Shown here piece after piece: positions 7,603-50,089 of a stretch of DNA of 64,000 bases. The notes under the pieces are model-generated. The model was not told the DNA's origin and did no database searches. It saw nothing but the letters and a program-made list of their open reading frames with translations. Within the stretch, counting starts at the first letter, position 1, and every line of letters begins with the position of its first letter. Source of the stretch: Erythrobacter insulae (GTDB lineage Bacteria; Pseudomonadota; Alphaproteobacteria; Sphingomonadales; Sphingomonadaceae); the NCBI RefSeq assembly GCF_007004095.1, contig NZ_VHJK01000001.1, forward strand, positions 2,422,501 through 2,486,500. The letters are read 5' to 3'. The translations under genes were made by a program, and so were the position numbers.

Positions 7603-9813
7603 ATGTCGGAAACTGGAGAAACGGCTCAACAAGCCGGGCGAGAGCTCTTGCAGGAAGAGCGATTGCCGCCTTTTGTCAGAGTGACATTGAGACGCTGGGC
7701 CAAGTGGTATTCTGGCGGCGCGGAACTGTTCTGGCCATTCACAGACATTGCGGTTCGGTTTTTCGTGGCAGTCTGGTTCTTGCGGTCTGGGCTGGTCAAG
7801 CTGAGTGATTGGGACACCGCGCTTTATCTGGCGGCGAATGAGTACCCTGTAAGCTGGATGTCTGCGTCGAATGCGGCGATCATTGGGCTTTCAATCGAGC
7901 TTGTCGGGCCGCTTTTGTTTCTGGCTGGCTTCTTTACCCGTCCCGCGGCTCTTGCGATGGCTGCTCTTACCGTCATCAGCCAAGCGGTGTATATTCCGAC
8001 GACTACGAACCTGATGGTTATCTCAATTCTCGCTTGGTACGTTATCAGCGGCCCGGCGGCTTTCTCGTTTGATCGGGTATTGGCTTCTGGATTGAAGCAC
8101 AGCGCGTTGCCTTTGGCGCGGCCCTTGATCAAACTTGGCGATTGGTCGCGAGCGGAAATCGGGCCGGCTGCGATGATGGCTATTCGGATCTGGTTGACGA
8201 TCGCGCTGCTCGCTTACGCTGATGTATTTGAGCCTTCGATAGGTTTGGCGACGTGGCTCCCGACGAGTGTTTTTGTGGGAATTCCAGCGTGGCTTGCGAT
8301 TGCCTTTGCCGCATTGTTCCTGACGGGATTTGCGGCGAGCATCGTATCTTATGCACTGGTACTTGTAATCGGCTTCACAATGATCGCTGGCGCGCATCCG
8401 AATGTCACGCTGTTCCCGTTTCTGCTGCTTGGTATTTACGAATCGCGCGGGGCCGGACGGCTATCGTTCGACTCAGCCATTTGGGCCTGGATGGAGAAAA
8501 ACATCCTGTTTGACCGCGATTATTCCGAGATTCCCGGTGATTGGCCGCACATTGTCGTTGTCGGCGCAGGTTTTGGCGGGCTTGCAGCCGTTGAGCGGCT
8601 TAAACGTCTACCGGTGCGTATTACATTGATAGACAAACGCAATTATCACCTTTTCCAACCGCTGCTGTATCAAGTTGCGACCGCGACTTTGAACCCGGCA
8701 GATATCGCCACTCCAATTCGAAGCCTGTTTCGCGCCGACGGCAATGTTCGGGTTATCAAGGGTGAGGTCCGGGAAATTGATTCAAAGACCAAGACCATCA
8801 CGCATGGCGCGGTGTCAGGTGAGAAACGCGAGCTTGGCTATGACCGGCTGGTTCTGGCGACGGGAGCAACCCACAGCTATTTCGGAAATGAGGAGTGGAG
8901 CGCATTGGCTCCCGGGCTCAAGACGATAGAGGATGGAGTGGCGGTGCGGGCTTCGATCCTGAATGCATTCGAGCAAGCAGAAGCGACCGAAGATCAGAAC
9001 AAGATCAGACGTTTGCTAACCTTTGTCATCGTCGGCGGCGGACCAACAGGCGTGGAATTGGCAGGTGCAATCGCCGAACTCGCGAAGGTGAGCGTAGCGA
9101 GAGAATTCAGAACAGTTGATCCCGCCACCGCTCAGGTCATCCTTGTACAATCTGGCGACAGAATTCTGCCAGCCTTTTCTGCGGAGTTATCGCTCAAAGC
9201 TTCAGAATCGCTCGAAAACCTGGGTGTTGAAATTCGAACTGGCGGGCGTGTGACCCATATTGCCAATGAACAAGTGCGGATCGATGATGCTTCGACAATC
9301 GAGACCGAGACCGTTCTCTGGGCTGCCGGGGTCAAGGCTTCACCAGCGGCGAAATGGCTCGGGACGGAGAGTGATCGGGCGGGCAGGGTGCCTGTTAATG
9401 ATCACTTGAGAGTGCATGGCCCCGATGGCGTGCTCGATGATGTATTCGCGATTGGGGACACCGCGAACAGCAATGGGTGGGGCGGAAATATGGTGCCAGG
9501 GCTTGCACCTGCGGCAAAGCAAGGCGGCATTTATGTCTCGCAGGTTGTTGAGGCAGAATTGCTAAACAAACAATGCCCCGGCCCCTTCGTCTACAAACAT
9601 CAAGGCAGTCTGGCGACCATTGGGCGTAAATCGGCAGTCGCCGATTTTGGTATGTACAAATTATCCGGGAACATCGCGTGGTGGCTTTGGGGAGTTGTGC
9701 ATCTCGGGTTCCTTACCGGGATGAGAAATCGAGTGACTGTGACGATCAATTGGATCTGGAGTTTTTTCGCCCACCATTCCGGCGTGCGTCTGATCACGGA
9801 AAAACAGGTTTAA
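7603..9813 (+). CDS. DoxX-like membrane module fused to type II NADH dehydrogenase
   Basis: A 736-residue fusion. Residues about 45-290 hold several hydrophobic helices in a DoxX-like arrangement (RFFVAVWFLRSGLVKL, then LVGPLLFLAGFFTRPAAL), probably one and a half to two DoxX units. Residues 315 to the end form a two-dinucleotide-fold flavoprotein: FAD motif GAGFGG at 321-326, NAD motif GGGPTGVELAG near 479, and FAIGDTA before the C-terminal membrane-binding region. Known NDH-2 enzymes oxidise NADH and reduce quinone without proton pumping. The fused DoxX part may anchor the enzyme or carry a quinone- or thiol-linked activity; that is inference. A strong AGGAGGG ribosome site precedes the ATG. 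It is monocistronic as far as seen. Confidence 0.9.
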   Translation: MSETGETAQQAGRELLQEERLPPFVRVTLRRWAKWYSGGAELFWPFTDIAVRFFVAVWFLRSGLVKLSDWDTALYLAANEYPVSWMSASNAAIIGLSIELVGPLLFLAGFFTRPAALAMAALTVISQAVYIPTTTNLMVISILAWYVISGPAAFSFDRVLASGLKHSALPLARPLIKLGDWSRAEIGPAAMMAIRIWLTIALLAYADVFEPSIGLATWLPTSVFVGIPAWLAIAFAALFLTGFAASIVSYALVLVIGFTMIAGAHPNVTLFPFLLLGIYESRGAGRLSFDSAIWAWMEKNILFDRDYSEIPGDWPHIVVVGAGFGGLAAVERLKRLPVRITLIDKRNYHLFQPLLYQVATATLNPADIATPIRSLFRADGNVRVIKGEVREIDSKTKTITHGAVSGEKRELGYDRLVLATGATHSYFGNEEWSALAPGLKTIEDGVAVRASILNAFEQAEATEDQNKIRRLLTFVIVGGGPTGVELAGAIAELAKVSVAREFRTVDPATAQVILVQSGDRILPAFSAELSLKASESLENLGVEIRTGGRVTHIANEQVRIDDASTIETETVLWAAGVKASPAAKWLGTESDRAGRVPVNDHLRVHGPDGVLDDVFAIGDTANSNGWGGNMVPGLAPAAKQGGIYVSQVVEAELLNKQCPGPFVYKHQGSLATIGRKSAVADFGMYKLSGNIAWWLWGVVHLGFLTGMRNRVTVTINWIWSFFAHHSGVRLITEKQV

Positions 9814-9877: not shown

Positions 9878-10624
9878 TCAGATCAAGCCTTTTGCACGAA
9901 GGCTGACATGGCCCTCGCGCCCGATGATGACATGATCGTGAAGGGTAACACCCAATAGCCTTCCGGCTTCAGCGATTTTCTTGGTTATTTGAATATCTGC
10001 GCGGCTCGGCTCGGGGCTTCCGCTCGGGTGATTGTGGACCAGAATCAACGCCGTTGCGCCAACGTCCATTGCTCTACGAATAACTTCGCGAGGATGGATT
10101 GCGGCTTCGTCAATCGAGCCATCTCCCACATGGTGATCATCGATCAACCGATTTCTTGTATCGAGGTACAGAACCCGGACGCGTTCAACAGTGAGATGCG
10201 CCATATCGATTGCAAGATAGTCGATCAGCGCATCCCAGCTGGAAAGAACCGGCTTTTTGATCACTTCACTGCGCGCCATCCGCCGGGTTGCGATTGATAC
10301 CGCTTTCAGTGCAGCTGAACTGGTTTCTCCCACTCCTTTGACGCGCTGTAACGCTTTAGGGTCGGCATTAAGCACGCCTGCGAGGCTGCCAAACTGTTTG
10401 ATCAGCGCCTTTGCAATCGGTTTCGTATCGCCCTGTTTGATGGCTGCGAACAAGAGGTATTCCAGCACTTCGTAATCGGCGAGGGCATCGTACCCACCGG
10501 TCAACAGCCGCTCGCGAAGTCTCGCGCGGTGACCAATGCCTGCAAGCTTGCCTGAATCCGAAGCCGGTCGAGCCGCTCCAGATGGCTCTTTCCCAAAATC
10601 AAAACTCTCAGTGGCGTCGGCCAA
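9878..10624 (-). CDS. radC: RadC-family JAB/MPN-domain protein
   Basis: A 248-residue protein with an N-terminal helix-hairpin-helix region (VKGVGETSSAALKA near residue 95) and a C-terminal JAB metalloprotease-like domain carrying LVHNHPSGSPEPSRAD, the zinc-ligand motif. The biological role of RadC is unsettled; it was long but doubtfully linked to DNA repair. The only start that gives the full domain is TTG at 10624, supported by GGGGGA about 4 nt upstream. Divergent from ydbH. Confidence 0.92.
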   Translation of the reverse strand: MADATESFDFGKEPSGAARPASDSGKLAGIGHRARLRERLLTGGYDALADYEVLEYLLFAAIKQGDTKPIAKALIKQFGSLAGVLNADPKALQRVKGVGETSSAALKAVSIATRRMARSEVIKKPVLSSWDALIDYLAIDMAHLTVERVRVLYLDTRNRLIDDHHVGDGSIDEAAIHPREVIRRAMDVGATALILVHNHPSGSPEPSRADIQITKKIAEAGRLLGVTLHDHVIIGREGHVSLRAKGLI

Positions 10625-10694
10625 TTTGTCCCCCAGAGATTATCCTTTTACTTCATTGCCTTTACGCAGCGATACGCGCAAGTGTGCCAGCGCC

Positions 10695-13600
10695 ATGGCA
10701 AGCGCGAATGATACGATCAAACCGGCTCGGCCTCATCGGATTTCCCTGCCCCGAAAGCGGCGGTGGAGAGCACTTGCGCTGATTTTGATTTTGATGGGTG
10801 CAGGTTTTGTAGCAACGTGGATCTCGCGCGAGAGAATTGCGGGCAACATCATTCAGGAAGAATTGGATAGGCTGGGCCTGCCGGCCACCTATGAGATTGT
10901 TTCAATAACCCCGCAAAAACAGCTGCTGCGGAACCTAATCGTAGGAAACCCCAATCGGCCCGACCTGTTGATTGAAGAAGTCGTAGTCAATCTTGAATAT
11001 GGCCTGGCGGGGCCGGCCGTTGGGCAAATAGAGATCGTGAAACCGCGGCTTTACGCGACATTTCGCGGCGGCGAATTCAGCCTCGGCTCGCTTGATCCTG
11101 TGCTTTTCAGCGATAGTGAAGAACCCCCGGCTTTGCCGCAGTTCGACGTCGTTCTGCGCGATGGGCGCGCTTTGGTTGAAAGCGATTTTGGTGCGGTTGG
11201 CGCTAAGTTCACTGGTAGCGGGCGGCTGGATGACGGCTTTAACGGTAAACTGGCGATAACCGCTCCCAATGCTGGCGTGGCTGGCTGCAATGTAGAAACA
11301 GCCACCGCGTACGGAGATGTTACCACAAAAGATGGCGTCCCATCGTTTGTTGGTCCGCTGCGCTTGCGGGGGCTTGATTGCCAAGGGGGCACGTTGAAGA
11401 CGTTTGATGCGAGCGCGGACCTTGCGCTGACACAAGATCTGTCAGGTGCGGGCGGGACGGTGACATTGGCCGCTGATGCATTGGACTTTGCAAACGGCGG
11501 TGCCGCGATGCTGTCCGGTGATGTGGTTTTTAGCTGGGATGAAGGCGGCTTAAACCTTCGCCACGATCTGCTAGCTGATCAGATCCGGACGGATTATGGC
11601 AATTTTGACGAAGCCCGCCTCGATGGGGCGTTCCGTTCGGAACCCGGTTTTGCGCGCAGTGATTGGGATGCAAACGTGACGGGCCGCGGGCTAAACCTTG
11701 CCGGCGGTGCTAACGCGATGATCGAAGAAGCGAAAGCCGGTTCTGCCGAGACCTTGCTGGCGCCGCTGATTGCGAAATTTCAGCGGAATTTCACACAGGC
11801 TTCATCCGATGCCAATTTGGCCGCGGCATTCACTTTGAGACAGACCGAAGACGCAACCACATTCGTAATTCCCGAAGGCCGATTACAAAGCGGCAGCGGC
11901 GAAACCCTTTTGGCTCTTTCGCGGGTAAGTTGGATACGCAGTGATGCAGGTGCCAGGCTTAGCGGCAATTTTGTAACGGGCGGAAGGGGGCTTCCCCGGG
12001 TGAACGGGAGAATGGAACAATCGAGGGGCGGATCGTTGGCGCTTCGCATCGCGATGGCCGAGTTTGCTCAAGGATCTGACCGGATAAGTATTCCCCGGCT
12101 ACAAGTGACGCAGAGGCAGGACGGCAACGTCACATTTGGCGGCGCTGCTGTGGTAGGCGGCGCTATTCCCGGGGGAAGCATCACAGCACTTGAAATTCCG
12201 ATTGAAGGGGAATGGAATAACACCTCGGGTCTGATCCTGGGCCGTCAATGTCTTGATCTGCGTTTTGGGGGCTTGAATGTCTATGATCTCGCGATCGAAG
12301 GCAGTGCGATTTCCGTTTGCCCCGAACAAGGGGCCCCGATGATACGGTTTACCGATACTCTAACCGTCAACGCTGCCGCGCGGGACGTCCAGTTTACTGG
12401 CGTTTTGGCCGGTTCCCCTACCGAACTTTCGGCTGGCGCAATCGCAATTGCGTATCCGGGCTCTTTCGCGTTGCAGGATGCGCGCGTTGTTTTGGGCGCG
12501 GAGGAAAGCTCAATGCAGCTGCATTCCAGCAGCATTGAAGGAAACTTTGATACGCTTGGCGGAACCTTTAGCGGTGCAAACGCGGCGCTGGATTTCGTAC
12601 CTCTCGATCTTTCTGAGGCATCTGGTCTCTGGGCTTACCGCGATAATGCTTTGGTCATTGAAGATGGAGCGTTTGAATTGTCCGAAAGGATCGAGGGTGA
12701 AGCGCGATTCGAACCGCTGACTGGCCGCGCTGCGATGATGAGCCTTTTGGGCAATGAGTTGAAAGCACACGCCGATCTAACCCATTCTGGATCAGGCCGA
12801 TTGATTACGCGAATTAATCTTATTCATGATCTGGGGCAGGGGATCGGGGTTGCAACGATCGATGTGCCCGGTGTGATATTCGATGACCGCCTTCGGCCCG
12901 AGGATCTGAGCAATCTCGTCAAGGGCGTGATCGCCAATGCCAATGGCACCGTATCTGGCGAGGGCAGGATACGCTGGAGCGAGGATTCAATCACGAGTGA
13001 AGGTACGTTCGGTACCGAAGAACTGGACCTGGCTGCGGCCTTTGGCCCCATAGATGGATTGCGCGGGGAAATACGCTTCACGGATCTGATAAATTTGACC
13101 ACAGCACCTGCTCAAACGCTCGAGATAGGCTCCATGAACCCCGGGATCGAGGTATTGGCGGGACGCGTGCAATATTCTTTGACCAACGGCGAATTGATAT
13201 CTGTCGAGGATGCGCGGTGGCCGTTTATGGGCGGCGAGTTGATCCTTCGCCCGGTTGACATCCGATATGGCACGCCGGGCAGTCAGCTGTATGTGCTCGA
13301 AATCGTCGGCTTGGATGCCGAGACATTTATCGCGCAAATGGAGCTTAGCAATCTAAGCGCGACGGGTACGTTCGATGGAGCGGTGCCTATTTTGTTCGAT
13401 GATCAGGGCAATGGCACCATTGGGGCCGGTTTGTTGCTTTCGAGGGCACCGGGCGGCAATGTATCGTATATCGGTGAGCTGACATACGAAGACATGGGCG
13501 CGATTACGAACTTCGCTTTTCAATCGCTCAAATCATTAGATTACACGCAAATGAGCATCGGGTTGGATGGCAGCCTTGCCGGTGAAATCATCACAAGCTT

Positions 13601-13943
13601 CAAAATTGACGGGGTTAGACAAGGGGCAGGGGCCAATCAAAACCTGTTCACGAGGCAGCTCTCGAAACTTCCCATCCGGTTCAACGTCAATGTTCGGTCT
13701 GAGAACTTTTATCAGCTTGCGACCATGGTTCAGTCATTTTTTGACCCGGACTACCTCGGGAATCCTGTTGATCGCGGATTGTTTGATGTCGAGGGCCAGC
13801 GATTTTCCCCCGCAAATCCATTTGTCGAACCGCAGCCCAGCGCGCCCGGTCCCAGCGAAAATGTGCAGGATACGCCCGCACTTAATCTCAGACGCGGTGA
13901 TGAAACGCCCGTTCAACCTGTAGAAAGCGACGAGGATTTATGA
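10695..13943 (+). CDS. ydbH: YdbH-like AsmA-type intermembrane lipid transport protein
   Basis: A 1082-residue protein with a basic N-terminus, one signal-anchor helix (about residues 26-45) and a long beta-rich periplasmic body. The AsmA-like N-terminal phrases (LLRNLIVGNPNRPDLLIEE) and the following ynbE and ydbL homologues identify it as YdbH. In E. coli, YdbH bridges the envelope and shares with TamB and YhdP the job of moving phospholipids to the outer membrane. The open frame extends 53 codons upstream into radC antisense sequence; ATG 10695 (MASAND) is preferred because the extension has no family character. E. coli YdbH is shorter, about 880 residues. Confidence 0.85.
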   Translation: MASANDTIKPARPHRISLPRKRRWRALALILILMGAGFVATWISRERIAGNIIQEELDRLGLPATYEIVSITPQKQLLRNLIVGNPNRPDLLIEEVVVNLEYGLAGPAVGQIEIVKPRLYATFRGGEFSLGSLDPVLFSDSEEPPALPQFDVVLRDGRALVESDFGAVGAKFTGSGRLDDGFNGKLAITAPNAGVAGCNVETATAYGDVTTKDGVPSFVGPLRLRGLDCQGGTLKTFDASADLALTQDLSGAGGTVTLAADALDFANGGAAMLSGDVVFSWDEGGLNLRHDLLADQIRTDYGNFDEARLDGAFRSEPGFARSDWDANVTGRGLNLAGGANAMIEEAKAGSAETLLAPLIAKFQRNFTQASSDANLAAAFTLRQTEDATTFVIPEGRLQSGSGETLLALSRVSWIRSDAGARLSGNFVTGGRGLPRVNGRMEQSRGGSLALRIAMAEFAQGSDRISIPRLQVTQRQDGNVTFGGAAVVGGAIPGGSITALEIPIEGEWNNTSGLILGRQCLDLRFGGLNVYDLAIEGSAISVCPEQGAPMIRFTDTLTVNAAARDVQFTGVLAGSPTELSAGAIAIAYPGSFALQDARVVLGAEESSMQLHSSSIEGNFDTLGGTFSGANAALDFVPLDLSEASGLWAYRDNALVIEDGAFELSERIEGEARFEPLTGRAAMMSLLGNELKAHADLTHSGSGRLITRINLIHDLGQGIGVATIDVPGVIFDDRLRPEDLSNLVKGVIANANGTVSGEGRIRWSEDSITSEGTFGTEELDLAAAFGPIDGLRGEIRFTDLINLTTAPAQTLEIGSMNPGIEVLAGRVQYSLTNGELISVEDARWPFMGGELILRPVDIRYGTPGSQLYVLEIVGLDAETFIAQMELSNLSATGTFDGAVPILFDDQGNGTIGAGLLLSRAPGGNVSYIGELTYEDMGAITNFAFQSLKSLDYTQMSIGLDGSLAGEIITSFKIDGVRQGAGANQNLFTRQLSKLPIRFNVNVRSENFYQLATMVQSFFDPDYLGNPVDRGLFDVEGQRFSPANPFVEPQPSAPGPSENVQDTPALNLRRGDETPVQPVESDEDL

Positions 13944-36634: not shown

Positions 36635-38515
36635 ATGACACTCGCAATCTCTGCGCTTAAAACCTCTCTCGCATCCTTGGCGATATCGCTCGCAGCCGCT
36701 CCCGCATTTGCAGATGGCCATGCCGGACATGCGCACACGGACACTGCGGCATCGGCTGCCGAAACAGAGTTTCCGCTCACACCTGAAGGAGCGGCGCAGT
36801 TCATTGCAAAAGTCGAAGCCGAAATGGCCGACTTTTCCAGCACTTCTGCGCATATCTATTGGTTGCAAGCGACCAACATCACCTATGACAGCAACAAACT
36901 TGCCGCTGAATATGGCGCGCGGGCTACCTTGATGAGCGTTGGCTATGCCAATGAAGCGGCAAAATACGCCGCAGTGCCCGGGCTCGATTCAGAAATCTCG
37001 CGCAAACTGGATATGTTGCGCAACGGGATCGCGATGCCAGCTCCTTCACGCGATGGCGCGGCAGAGGAATTGTCAAACATCGCGACCGATCTTGGCGCAC
37101 AGTACGGTCAGGGTAAGGGGACTTTGAATGGCGAGCCTATCAATGGCTCCGACATCGAAGCAGAAATGGGTAATCTGGAACGCACCCCGGAAGAGCTCGC
37201 CGAAATGTGGGCCAGCTGGCACGACAATGTCGGCGCGCCAATGCGTGAAGATTACACCAAAATGATAGCCATCGCGAATGAAGGCGCCAAAGAGCTCGGA
37301 TTCGATAATGTCGGCACGATGTGGCGTTCGGGTTATGATATGTCGGCGGAGGAATTCGCAGGCGAAACCGAACGCATGTGGCAGGAAGTCAAACCGCTTT
37401 ACGTTGCGCTTCATACATACGTTCGCCGAAAGCTGAACGAGAAATACGGCGACAACGTGCAACCTGCGACCGGCCCAATTCGCGCTGACTTGCTCGGCAA
37501 TATGTGGGCCCAGGAATGGGGTAACATTTACCCTCTGGTTGCGCCCGAAGGCGCGGGTGATATCGGTTATGACCTAACCGATTTGATCGCGGAAAAAGAT
37601 CTGGACGCGGTCGAGATGACGAAAGTCGGCGAACAGTTTTTCTCATCTTTGGGCTTTGAAGCTCTGCCGGAAACCTTTTGGGATCGAAGCCAGTTCACCA
37701 AACCGCGCGACCGCGAAGTTGTGTGCCATGCCTCAGCCTGGAACCTCGACAATGTCGACGATCTTCGTATCAAGATGTGCATCAAGCAGAATGCAGATGA
37801 CTTCATCACGATCCATCACGAGCTTGGCCACAATTATTATCAGCGCGCCTATAATGATCAGGACTTCCTGCATCTCAATGGCGCAAATGATGGTTTCCAC
37901 GAAGCGATCGGCGATATGATCGCCTTGTCGATTACACCGGATTATCTGGTGCAGATCGACATGCTGAAAGAAGACGAAGTGCCCAGCGCCGATAAGGACA
38001 TTGGCCTGCTGCTGCGTCAGGCGATGGATAAGGTGGCGTTCCTGCCATTCGGTCTGCTTGTTGACCGGTATCGTTGGAGCTTGTTTGATGGATCGGTCGC
38101 ACCGCAAGATTACAACAAGGCATGGACCGAATTGCGCACCGAATATCAGGGTATCATTCCACCGGTTGAGCGGCCGGATGATGCCTTTGACCCCGGCGCA
38201 AAATATCATGTTCCCGGCAATGTCAGCTACACCCGCTATTTCCTTGCCCGTCTTCTGCAATTCCAGTTTTATAAAGCGGCCTGCGACACCGCAGGTTGGG
38301 AAGGGCCGCTTCACCGCTGTTCGTTTTATGGCAATGAAGAGGTCGGCCAGAATTTGAACGCCATGCTTGAAATGGGCGCTTCCAAGCCGTGGCCTGACGC
38401 ACTTGAGGCCTTCACAGGAGAGCGCCAAATGTCCGGCAAGGCGATGGTCGAATATTTCGCCCCGCTTATGGATTGGCTTGAAGAACAGAATAAAGGACAG
38501 GAAAAAGGTTGGTGA
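36635..38515 (+). CDS. M2 family peptidyl-dipeptidase (ACE-like), exported
   Basis: Zinc dipeptidyl carboxypeptidase related to angiotensin-converting enzyme. The 626-residue protein has a signal peptide ending in APAFA near residue 26, a His-rich start to the mature chain, and the zinc site HHELGHNYYQ (His395, Glu396, His399) with third ligand in HEAIGD near residue 423. AGAGGA precedes the ATG. It would release C-terminal dipeptides from peptides in the periplasm. Its stop overlaps the next start, making it the head of a coupled operon with a propeller lipoprotein, a RimB-like protease and RimK. Confidence 0.93.
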   Translation: MTLAISALKTSLASLAISLAAAPAFADGHAGHAHTDTAASAAETEFPLTPEGAAQFIAKVEAEMADFSSTSAHIYWLQATNITYDSNKLAAEYGARATLMSVGYANEAAKYAAVPGLDSEISRKLDMLRNGIAMPAPSRDGAAEELSNIATDLGAQYGQGKGTLNGEPINGSDIEAEMGNLERTPEELAEMWASWHDNVGAPMREDYTKMIAIANEGAKELGFDNVGTMWRSGYDMSAEEFAGETERMWQEVKPLYVALHTYVRRKLNEKYGDNVQPATGPIRADLLGNMWAQEWGNIYPLVAPEGAGDIGYDLTDLIAEKDLDAVEMTKVGEQFFSSLGFEALPETFWDRSQFTKPRDREVVCHASAWNLDNVDDLRIKMCIKQNADDFITIHHELGHNYYQRAYNDQDFLHLNGANDGFHEAIGDMIALSITPDYLVQIDMLKEDEVPSADKDIGLLLRQAMDKVAFLPFGLLVDRYRWSLFDGSVAPQDYNKAWTELRTEYQGIIPPVERPDDAFDPGAKYHVPGNVSYTRYFLARLLQFQFYKAACDTAGWEGPLHRCSFYGNEEVGQNLNAMLEMGASKPWPDALEAFTGERQMSGKAMVEYFAPLMDWLEEQNKGQEKGW

Positions 38516-46862: not shown

Positions 46863-47506
46863 TGACCCAAAAACCGGTCTTATACACTTGCGCTGCATCG
46901 CGCGGGCTTAGAGCGACCTGGGCGGCTGAGGAGGCTGGTGTTGAGATTGATCTGAAGATCTTGCCGTTTCCGCCGCGATATCTTGCGCCTGACTATCTCG
47001 AGATCAATCCACTAGGCACCGTGCCCTTGTTGATTGATGGCGATGCCCGCATGACGGAAAGCTGCGCAATTGCCCATTATCTGGCGACCAAAGACGGCAT
47101 CACCGATCTGGCTGTCGCTCCAGGTGATACGGACTATGCCGAATATTGTGATTACACATATCACGCAGATGCCACGATCACTTTTCCGCAAACTGTCTAT
47201 ATGCGCTTTGCCATATTCGAAAAGGACAAGGGCTGGGCCGATGCAGGTCATGCCTATGCCAAGTGGTTTTACAAACGTCTGGTGAAGATCGAGCAGCGAT
47301 TGCAGGGGCGCGATTTCCTTTGCGCGGACCGTTTTACAATCGCTGATATCTGTGTGGGATACGCGTTAATTTTGGCAAAGAATGTCGGTCTGGACGATGG
47401 CATTCCAGCAGGGCTTAAAGCGTACAGAGAGCGACTTACGGGACGAGAAGCCTACAAACGCGCCGCCGAACGCGAGGAAAAAGGACGCGCCGCGCTCCCA
47501 TCCTAG
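46862..47506 (+). CDS. Glutathione S-transferase family protein
   Basis: A 214-residue GST: thioredoxin-like N-terminal domain (INPLGTVPLLIDGD, then ESCAIAHYLA) and helical C-terminal domain (FTIADICVGYAL). It is coupled to the DUF808 gene. The last stop overlaps tail-to-tail with the convergent zinc-ribbon gene, so CTAG serves as stop on both strands. Substrate unknown. Confidence 0.9.
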   Translation: MTQKPVLYTCAASRGLRATWAAEEAGVEIDLKILPFPPRYLAPDYLEINPLGTVPLLIDGDARMTESCAIAHYLATKDGITDLAVAPGDTDYAEYCDYTYHADATITFPQTVYMRFAIFEKDKGWADAGHAYAKWFYKRLVKIEQRLQGRDFLCADRFTIADICVGYALILAKNVGLDDGIPAGLKAYRERLTGREAYKRAAEREEKGRAALPS

Positions 47507-47781
47507 GGATTTGCTTGCGTCAAATCTGTCCCGCATTTGCCACAGATCCTGTTCGGCCACGGCACCACAAATATTCCGCGAAAGAAAAGGTTCTTTCCGC
47601 AAGTCTTGCAATTGAGGCGCAGCATAGGTGTGTTCATCGCGACGAGCCCGACGATGGCGATTGCAAACGCGATGGATGAGTGTCCCCAAAATCGCTCCAC
47701 AACGATGACAAACAGAATGGCGAGGAAAAGCGCGCCCAACATCCGCAATGCATGTTGTTTTGCGGCTTGATAGGTATTCAT
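47503..47781 (-). CDS. Small membrane protein with C-terminal zinc ribbon (unknown)
   Basis: A 92-residue protein: two hydrophobic segments (about residues 12-29 and 35-51) and then a four-cysteine ribbon, CKTCGKN near residue 58 and CGKCGTD near 80. I do not recognise the family. Its start overlaps the stop of the Mur-ligase-like gene (ATGA), so both are one operon. It may be a membrane-bound zinc or redox protein serving envelope synthesis. Confidence 0.78.
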   Translation of the reverse strand: MNTYQAAKQHALRMLGALFLAILFVIVVERFWGHSSIAFAIAIVGLVAMNTPMLRLNCKTCGKNLFFRGIFVVPWPNRICGKCGTDLTQANP

Positions 47782-49205
47782 CGGATCTGTTCGAAAATGG
47801 ACCGTGCAAATTCGCTAAGTGTGTCATCCCGAGCGCCCATAATCACAATCCGGTCCCCGGGCTTTGCAAGCTGTTTAATGCGGGCTCCGCAATCTTCGCG
47901 GGCGGCGATGTGTTCGGCGGTTCCTCCCTGCGCTTTGATCAGATCAATGATCCGTTCGCTGCCTTCACTGCGATCAACCGTCCCGCCGAAATAGACCGGG
48001 TCGCACATGATTGTGATGTCGTCTGGAGCAAGCACGCTTGCGAAAGTTTCAGCCAGTTCATCGCCCATCTGCCGCAGTGGGCCATATCCATGCGGTTGAA
48101 AAAACGCGATTACCCGGCCCGGGGCCGATTTTAACGTCCGAAGGGTCGCCGCGCATTTTTCCGGGTTGTGGCCAAAATCATCGATGACGGTGATATCGGT
48201 ATCGCTCGTACCCACAACATCGAACCGGCGCGCCAGCCCTTTGAAGGAACGCAGCGCGTGCACCGCTTTATCAACTCCGATACCCGCCGCGCTTACCGCT
48301 GCGATTGCGGCGAGGGCGTTGGAAAGATTGTGCAACCCCGGCATAGGCAGAACCAGAGGGAAGGCTTCTTTTGATCGGCTGTCCACAACCGCAGCGGAGA
48401 TTTCCAACGCGCCTTGCTCGATTGTCTTGCGATCAACGGTGATCTCCGCATCATCGGACTCGATCCCGAAGCTCACAAATTGGGAAGCGTACTTCACCAG
48501 ATCACGGGCCTCGTGATTGTCGAAATTGACGACTGCGCAGCCGGAATCAGAGAGGTAATTGCCGAACAAAGCGCGCAGCTCGCCAAGGCTTTTGTGATCA
48601 AGACTGACATTGAGCAGCACGCCGATTGTTGGCCGGTAAAGCGCAATTGAGCCGTCGCTTTCATCCACCTCGCTAACAAAGACCCGCGGATTGCCAACCC
48701 GTGCGCTTGCAAAGGGATTGTCGCCATCGGCGAAGTTTTTCATGACCGCACCGTTCATCACGGTCGGGTCATGTTCTGCGACAGAAAGAATCCACGCGAT
48801 CATTCCGGTGACAGTCGATTTGCCTGAGGTGCCGCCGATGGCGATGGAATATCCCGCTTCGTTGAACAACATCGAAAGCAGTTCAGCGCGCGTCATACGC
48901 ACGCAGCCCAGCTCTTTTGCACGTTTAACCTCGGGCACGGTGTCCTCGACCGCAGCGGATGCGATCAGGATTTGGTCTTTGTCGGTGATGCCTGTGCCGT
49001 CTTGCGGGTAAAGTGCATATCCGTTGTCCGCGAGCCATCCGAATTTTTCGGGCGTGCGACCCTGATCACGGCTTCTGTCAGAGCCTGCGATCTGGTGGCC
49101 AAAGCCGTGCGCGATCTGAGCCAGCGGGAGCATGCCCGACCCACCGATGCCGCAAAAGAAAAAGGGCCGTCCATCAAGGTCCGGCCGGTCGTTCCAGTTA
49201 TCCAT
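47778..49205 (-). CDS. Mur ligase family protein (MurC/Mpl-like)
   Basis: A 475-residue ATP-dependent amide ligase of the MurC/Mpl branch: FCGIGGSGMLPLA at the N-terminus, P-loop GGTSGKST near residue 125, SEVDESDGS near 180, SLDHKSLGEL near 205 and DDFGHNP near 340. The P-loop differs from the GTHGKTT of MurC and Mpl, so substrate is uncertain. With an LD-carboxypeptidase gene divergent 53 nt away, a role like Mpl in reusing murein peptides is plausible; housekeeping MurC is normally in the division cluster. Confidence 0.82.
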   Translation of the reverse strand: MDNWNDRPDLDGRPFFFCGIGGSGMLPLAQIAHGFGHQIAGSDRSRDQGRTPEKFGWLADNGYALYPQDGTGITDKDQILIASAAVEDTVPEVKRAKELGCVRMTRAELLSMLFNEAGYSIAIGGTSGKSTVTGMIAWILSVAEHDPTVMNGAVMKNFADGDNPFASARVGNPRVFVSEVDESDGSIALYRPTIGVLLNVSLDHKSLGELRALFGNYLSDSGCAVVNFDNHEARDLVKYASQFVSFGIESDDAEITVDRKTIEQGALEISAAVVDSRSKEAFPLVLPMPGLHNLSNALAAIAAVSAAGIGVDKAVHALRSFKGLARRFDVVGTSDTDITVIDDFGHNPEKCAATLRTLKSAPGRVIAFFQPHGYGPLRQMGDELAETFASVLAPDDITIMCDPVYFGGTVDRSEGSERIIDLIKAQGGTAEHIAAREDCGARIKQLAKPGDRIVIMGARDDTLSEFARSIFEQIR

Positions 49206-49258
49206 AGGACACGGATATTGGCTTGCGCGGGCACTGACAAGCGAACTAGGTGTAAAGA

Positions 49259-50089
49259 ATGACGAAAATTGCCATTTGTGCCCCTGCCACGCCGATAACC
49301 CGCGAACACGCGGACGCCTTGCGCGAGATGGTGGCCGCAGAATTTCCGCAGACGCAGGTCACATTTCATGACCAATGCTTTGTTCGCGAAGGGCATTTCG
49401 CGGGAAGTGATCTTACGCGGCTAACCGCGCTGCTCGAGTGCGCCAATGATCCGGCGTTTGACGCGGTTTGGTTCGCTAAAGGCGGGTATGGCTCCAATCG
49501 CATCGCCGAAGCCGCCATGGCCCGAATGAACGCTGCTGCGCGTGCGAAAACTTATGTCGGGTTTTCCGATTGCGGGTATTTGCTGGCGGCGTTGTACCGC
49601 GCTGGTATCGGGCAGTGCGCGCATGGGTCGATGCCAGTCAGCGCGCGCTCCGCCAATGGTCGCAAGGCTGTGCGCCGGGTTTTGCAATGGCTTAACGGTG
49701 ACAATACCGGACTGGAGCCGAGCTTGGATGGGGCGACACCGGCAGTCGCGTTTAACCTGATCACACTCGCCATGCTTTCCAACACGCCGATGATGCCGGA
49801 CCTTTCCGGGCATGTTGTTATGGTCGAGGAAGTCAGCGAGCATCTCTACGCGATTGATCGGCTGTTCTTCCATCTGTCGGGCAGCTTGCCGCGCATCGCC
49901 GGGCTTCGGCTTGGTTCGGTAACCGACATTCCGGAAAATTATGTAGAGTTCGGCCAGAGCGAGGAAGATATTGCGCGTTTCTGGTGCGAGCGCGCAGGTG
50001 TTCCGTATCTGGGCCGAGCTGAAATCGGTCACACATCTGCCAACAGGGTCGTGCCGTTCGGGCTTGCCAGTCCGCCGGCAGCTTCGTAA
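49259..50089 (+). CDS. ldcA: LD-carboxypeptidase (S66, LdcA-like)
   Basis: Removes the terminal D-Ala from murein tetrapeptides in the cytoplasm during cell-wall recycling. The 276-residue protein has WFAKGGYGSNRI near residue 77, the nucleophile serine in VGFSDCGYLL near residue 102, VVMVEEVSEHLYAIDR with the Glu base and a C-terminal GHTSANRVVPFG with the histidine. It is divergent from the Mur-ligase-like gene, and fabD follows 27 nt downstream. Confidence 0.9.
   Translation: MTKIAICAPATPITREHADALREMVAAEFPQTQVTFHDQCFVREGHFAGSDLTRLTALLECANDPAFDAVWFAKGGYGSNRIAEAAMARMNAAARAKTYVGFSDCGYLLAALYRAGIGQCAHGSMPVSARSANGRKAVRRVLQWLNGDNTGLEPSLDGATPAVAFNLITLAMLSNTPMMPDLSGHVVMVEEVSEHLYAIDRLFFHLSGSLPRIAGLRLGSVTDIPENYVEFGQSEEDIARFWCERAGVPYLGRAEIGHTSANRVVPFGLASPPAAS

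Follow-up and report, generated by a model that had tools for sequence, protein, structure and literature searches.

The 64,000-nucleotide stretch of the Erythrobacter insulae genome analyzed here (contig NZ_VHJK01000001.1, positions 2,422,501 to 2,486,500; referred to below as the window) carries a gene encoding a Mur ligase, arranged back to back with ldcA, which encodes an LD-carboxypeptidase. This ligase, called Mur2 here, belongs to a third Mur-ligase clade beside MurC and Mpl, to which the same label is given. With a probability of roughly three in four (0.77), we take Mur2 to be a stem-peptide ligase which evolved separately from Mpl and does the job of Mpl in many Alphaproteobacteria; it is predicted to replace Mpl without being orthologous to it, and its gene is linked to ldcA. 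LdcA would trim the tetrapeptide to a tripeptide, which Mur2 would return to UDP-N-acetylmuramic acid (UDP-MurNAc), bypassing MurC, MurD, and MurE; this reaction is a prediction, as are its donor peptide and its UDP-MurNAc acceptor. The core of the original prediction made on this DNA, namely a recycling module consisting of LdcA and a UDP-MurNAc:peptide ligase, finds good support at the sequence level in the co-occurrence and neighborhood of the two genes and in the active-site residues of the ligase.

The mur2 gene (47778..49205, minus strand) encodes a protein of 475 amino acids (aa) in which the N, M, and C Mur_ligase domains of Pfam all score above the cut-off. The ldcA gene (49259..50089, plus strand) encodes a 276-aa serine LD-carboxypeptidase of family S66. 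The 53 nucleotides separating the two start codons (49206..49258) form a possible regulatory region common to both genes.

Distinction of Mur2 from MurC and Mpl

The genome of E. insulae (2.99 Mb in three contigs, with a listed completeness of 100%) contains five Mur ligase middle domains, four of which are located at 344-353 kb, the fifth being that of the window gene. The original prediction had proposed looking for a standard murC elsewhere in the genome, since the window gene would be a housekeeping one if it were the sole murC. A true murC was found at G000:C1:343875-345212, scoring 525 bits with the MurC model TIGR01082 (cut-off 335.1), which rules out the housekeeping murC as the identity of the window ligase. 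With the same model, Mur2 scores 259.6 bits, under the cut-off, and with the Mpl model TIGR01081 it scores 113.3 bits, likewise under the cut-off of 388.7. The Mpl of E. coli obtains 914.4 bits with TIGR01081 and still 272.9 bits with TIGR01082; a near-miss on the latter thus fails to separate MurC from Mpl-like enzymes.

A tree was built from 100 proteins (43 Mur2, 31 MurC, and 26 Mpl), and in it Mur2, MurC, and Mpl each lie on their own side of a branch, with support values of 100, 97, and 100, respectively (Shimodaira-Hasegawa-like approximate likelihood ratio test, SH-aLRT). This tree is a quick, unrooted one restricted to Pseudomonadota; an odd letter make-up was flagged in 14 rows (10 of the 12 flagged rows that are named are Mur2 sequences from other alphaproteobacterial families), and there is one long branch (L199). 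On these sequences Mur2 is a third supported clade, placed neither within MurC nor within Mpl. The identification of Mur2 as a canonical Mpl is ruled out by its score, by its position in the tree, and by the absence of the Mpl motif described below. The view expressed previously that the ligase does not fit the textbook Mpl is upheld by this separate clade and by the fact that Mur2 is not an Mpl by homology; the P-loop given as the reason for it, GTSGKST, is a poor argument, being the norm of the clade.

Active-site residues

The P-loop GTSGKST (Mur2 residues 125-131; 48813..48833, minus strand) was found in the window protein and in 50/50 Mur2 sequences in one alignment. In the wider set of 43 Mur2 sequences, its third residue is S in 40 cases, C in 2, and A in 1, and the residue next to the P-loop lysine is Ser in 31 and Thr in 12. 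Among the sequences compared, GTSGKST is the usual P-loop of the Mur2 clade; the letters previously pointed out as an oddity are as stated, and they carry little weight. None of the 43 Mur2 sequences has lost the P-loop lysine, the metal-binding glutamates, or the histidine, which rules out GTSGKST as a mark of inactivity. Mur2 has the three domains, the P-loop lysine, and the metal-binding glutamate and histidine of the Mur ligase superfamily.

In MurC, binding of the incoming amino acid is attributed to His376, Arg377, Arg380, Tyr346, and His348, according to the part consulted of a paper on Mpl (PMC3060825); these were mapped by spacing to residues 382, 383, 386, 352, and 354 of E. coli MurC. 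Positions 346, 377, and 380 are occupied by Tyr, Arg, and Arg in 31/31 MurC and by Phe, Ser, and Met in 26/26 Mpl. In Mur2, they are occupied by Phe (42/43), Gly (40/43), and Pro (40/43), and the window protein has F, G, and P. The position of Tyr346 lies in its DDFGHNP motif (residues 342-348; 48162..48182, minus strand), where Phe takes the place of Tyr346 and Asn that of His349; the positions of Arg377 and Arg380 lie in its QPHGYGP motif (residues 370-376; 48078..48098, minus strand), as Gly and Pro. The fact that Mur2 and Mpl have lost the same three MurC contacts, with unlike replacements at both arginines, suggests that these two groups adapted independently to a larger substrate, which we take to be the stem peptide.

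Co-occurrence and neighborhood of mur2 and ldcA

The family sample consisted of 149 genomes, including that of E. insulae. Both genes are present in 101 of them, Mur2 alone in 1, LdcA alone in none, and neither in 47, which gives 102 genomes with Mur2 and 101 with LdcA (Fisher p 3e-38, uncorrected for kinship). The lone genome with Mur2 only carries a 147-aa fragment in a 380-contig assembly, and in one of the 101 pairs (G070) the Mur2 match is only a fragment at a contig edge. The two genes are adjacent in 97 of the 101 pairs; in the other four genomes (G004, G050, G098, and G127) both are kept, far apart or on separate contigs. Two genera are split, each having one genome with both genes and one with neither (G137/G068 and G076/G144). 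When the traits were placed on a quick tree of the true MurC proteins of 80 genomes, chosen so as to include 45 without the pair, 8 joint changes and no separate changes were counted on the best tree, only 3 of the joint changes being on strongly supported branches.

The named loci are close ones, being the 80 best among 547 relatives (genome contigs); LdcA is divergent in 79/80 of them, at no more than 225 bases from the domains matched, the remaining locus being ended by a contig edge. The divergent arrangement recurs in 9 of 27 loci taken from other families of the Alphaproteobacteria; in 11 more, mur2 is followed by ldcA on the same strand, the S66 protein being a more distant one, and in the remaining 7 there is no S66 gene nearby. 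At G330, one of these 7, the gene is split and its other part adjoins an ldcA. In two distant alphaproteobacteria (L186 and L189), an open reading frame (ORF) of about 765 aa, alike at its start in both, lies on the same strand after ldcA and lengthens the mur2-ldcA row. In the class sample (289 genomes; at most 5 or 8 candidates were scored per genome in the class-wide counts), Mur2 was detected at E ≤ 1e-90 in 35 genomes, 32 of which carry an S66 relative at E 1e-12. In the phylum sample (219 genomes), Mur2-level scores (at least 738 bits) occur in 8 genomes, all belonging to the class of the window, the next score being 290.

The mur2-ldcA pairing is not due to chance, since many genera have conserved it. 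The existence of two gene orders points to a functional tie between the two genes. It has to be asked whether they might be unrelated housekeeping or stress genes kept together by synteny, as the single gene order conserved in the named loci, nearly all of which are close relatives, would allow; the second gene order found elsewhere, the unlinked pairs that are nevertheless kept, and the joint presence or absence within the two split genera make this very improbable, and we regard it as already disfavored.

LdcA and the surrounding pathway

LdcA has both the N and C domains of Peptidase_S66 above the cut-off, together with the Ser-Glu-His triad of this family; the positions taken as the triad are Ser103, Glu190, and His258, and these are invariant in 22/22 aligned sequences. 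Its best solved relative, matched over nearly its full length (E 2.3e-106), is the LD-carboxypeptidase A of PDB entry 3g23, which we take to be NaLdcA of Novosphingobium aromaticivorans. NaLdcA acts on tetrapeptides, much like E. coli LdcA, as reported in the section consulted of PMC5646250. By analogy with this close homolog, from which no functional difference of note was seen, the window LdcA is predicted to be a tetrapeptide-trimming LD-carboxypeptidase.

In E. coli lacking LdcA, unprocessed tetrapeptides are joined to UDP-MurNAc, giving a damaging product (excerpt of PMC13046382). A peptide ligase would for this reason need an LdcA, and this need would explain the pairing of mur2 with ldcA.

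No canonical Mpl above the 388.7-bit cut-off was found in any of the 149 family genomes, nor in any of the 289 class genomes, where at most 5 candidates were scored per genome and the E. coli control passed. The cut-off was passed by 25/25 other Pseudomonadota selected for having two hits in the phylum search. Mpl homologs are reported in some Caulobacteraceae in the part consulted of PMC11980594, so the class is not wholly devoid of Mpl.

An AmpG-family permease was detected in 148/149 family genomes at E 0.001 and in 141 above the cut-off, among them that of E. insulae, in genomes with and without Mur2. The best such gene of E. insulae (G000:C1:2420758-2422350) ends 150 bases before window position 1, that is, about 48 kb from mur2-ldcA, and comparable distances were observed in several relatives. 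An Amidase_2 protein is encoded at C1:464202. Recycling of the E. coli type (AmpG, AmpD, LdcA, Mpl) is matched here by LdcA, by a permease of the AmpG family, and by an Amidase_2 protein, whereas the ligase step is predicted to depend on a non-orthologous enzyme linked to ldcA.

Evidence weighing against a peptide ligase

Several observations weigh against the assignment of Mpl's function to Mur2. The (S/T)AFFDKRSK motif, present in 24/26 Mpl, occurs in 0/43 Mur2. Fourteen well-conserved columns are common to Mur2 and MurC as opposed to Mpl, and only 2 to Mur2 and Mpl as opposed to MurC; the overall sequence is also closer to MurC than to Mpl, judging from the bit scores given above. The AlphaFold model of Mur2, which is a confident one (mean predicted local distance difference test score, pLDDT, 90.3), has MurC 1p3d as its best structural match (Z 44.2, 2.2 Å over 443 residues), and it matches full-length Mpl 3hn7 with Z 30.9 (4.5 Å over 434 residues) and two-domain Mpl 3eag with Z 33.3 (2.4 Å over 296 residues), domain pose having an influence on these Z scores. 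His376 is kept in Mur2 as in MurC and is Arg in Mpl, and His349, common to MurC and Mpl, is Asn in 43/43 Mur2. As regards the co-occurrence, the independent-pairs sign test gave p 0.25, which is not significant and could not have been, because only 3 of the 8 changes lie on strongly supported branches. In the class sample, an S66 relative was found in 19/254 genomes without Mur2, and 3/35 Mur2 genomes have no S66 relative at E 1e-12; one class relative with a 0.9 Mb genome (G316) carries a sphingomonad-type LdcA (C27:8426-9244, E 1e-115) and no Mur2.

Some of these features would be expected if Mur2 were a second MurC, an isoenzyme joining free L-alanine to UDP-MurNAc under particular conditions. 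MurC is the family with its top score and contains its best structural match; Mur2 shares with MurC the three-domain fold, the catalytic residues, the 14 columns, and both His348 and His376; and second MurCs exist elsewhere, in Frankia for instance (PMC7231273, in part). The Frankia MurC2 is grouped there with plant MurC, a placement that rules it out as an equivalent of Mur2. The substrate of Mur2 cannot be read from the modeled fold, and the score with the MurC model does not discriminate either, since that of E. coli Mpl is higher still. Three of the five positions in contact with the incoming amino acid, which are invariant in MurC, are replaced in nearly all Mur2, and the near-obligate pairing with LdcA would be left without an explanation. 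Mur2 differs from MurC, moreover, in its separate clade, its score under the cut-off, an insertion in the N-domain, and its coexistence with a true murC. We consider this second-MurC alternative unlikely. The resemblance of Mur2 to Mpl lies in the predicted reaction, the partnership with LdcA, and the loss of the contacts Tyr346, Arg377, and Arg380; it differs from Mpl in its clade, its score, the absence of AFFDKRSK, the retention of His376, and the P-loop GTSGKST.

The main doubt about Mur2 as a UDP-MurNAc:peptide ligase concerns the acceptor site, and is a further point against it: where E. coli MurC contacts the uracil through His71, 41/43 Mur2 carry Asp, and the acceptor may therefore differ. 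An Arg follows GSD in 41/43 Mur2, and there is a five-residue insertion relative to MurC in the uracil-contact region (DQGR region). These three features could be those of a peptide ligase with another acceptor or donor, such as a different activated muramyl sugar, or a tetrapeptide or dipeptide as the donor. The aspartate of GSD (43/43) and the glycine loop are kept, however, and Mpl also replaces the uracil-contact histidine (by Tyr in 21 and Phe in 5 of the 26 sequences) and yet uses UDP-MurNAc, which makes a change of substrate of this kind improbable. It also seems quite doubtful that Mur2 might be a third peptide-joining Mur family, independent of Mpl and spread with ldcA, the acceptor of which would not be plain UDP-MurNAc (an intermediate of a MurU-type shunt, for example), and which would belong to an undescribed route.

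The four-cysteine protein and other genes of the window

The gene adjoining mur2 downstream (47503..47781, minus strand) encodes a small membrane protein of 92 aa with a zinc-ribbon-like CxxC...CxxC tail; CKTC and CGKC were read from its translation, after hydrophobic segments, and no match was obtained with it in Pfam or NCBIfam. The arrangement originally described, with a ligase and LdcA diverging and a membrane partner on the ligase side, was borne out by the ORFs, the domains, and the 4-nucleotide ATGA overlap between the stop codon of mur2 and the start of the small gene. As for the coupling of this protein with the ligase, the four cysteines and the overlap are present, and the partner proved to be optional, adding little weight to the interpretation. 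Only 14/149 family genomes and 25/80 named loci have it immediately after mur2 in the same orientation, which rules it out as a core partner; seven further, weaker matches lie away from mur2, and a profile search covering 20 family loci of the divergent type, together with 27 loci from other families, found none. This protein is a lineage-restricted accessory, dispensable for the module; in the relatives of Erythrobacter it may serve to anchor the ligase or to regulate it.

The flanking genes, encoding a glutathione S-transferase (GST) and FabD, appear from their family matches to be unrelated to mur2 and ldcA. A scan of the locus for sigma-70-like promoters gave 0 sites, and a terminator scan gave 3 matches, below the mean of 4.2 for shuffled sequences. 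Elsewhere, the window carries genes for a DoxX membrane domain fused to an NDH-2-like pyridine nucleotide oxidoreductase (7603-9813), a YdbH-like large intermembrane phospholipid transport protein (10536-13943), and a full-length peptidase M2 of the angiotensin-converting-enzyme family (36635-38515, E 2.8e-212), all on the plus strand.

Implications for peptide reuse in Alphaproteobacteria

No description of this ligase was found among the matches listed in one open-access library, and mur2 is known in annotation merely as a generic cell-wall ligase. In the portions consulted of studies on Caulobacter and Agrobacterium (PMC13046382, PMC9790009), no Mpl or LdcA is reported, and the stem peptides are suggested to be degraded. 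Should Mur2 prove to be a peptide ligase, intact peptides would be reused in many other Alphaproteobacteria via an enzyme that is missed by homology searches for Mpl. This would provide a clear instance of substrate specificity changing convergently among the Mur ligases, along with a testable rule of substrate specificity, the joint loss of Tyr346, Arg377, and Arg380, and it would explain the role of LdcA in the Sphingomonadales.

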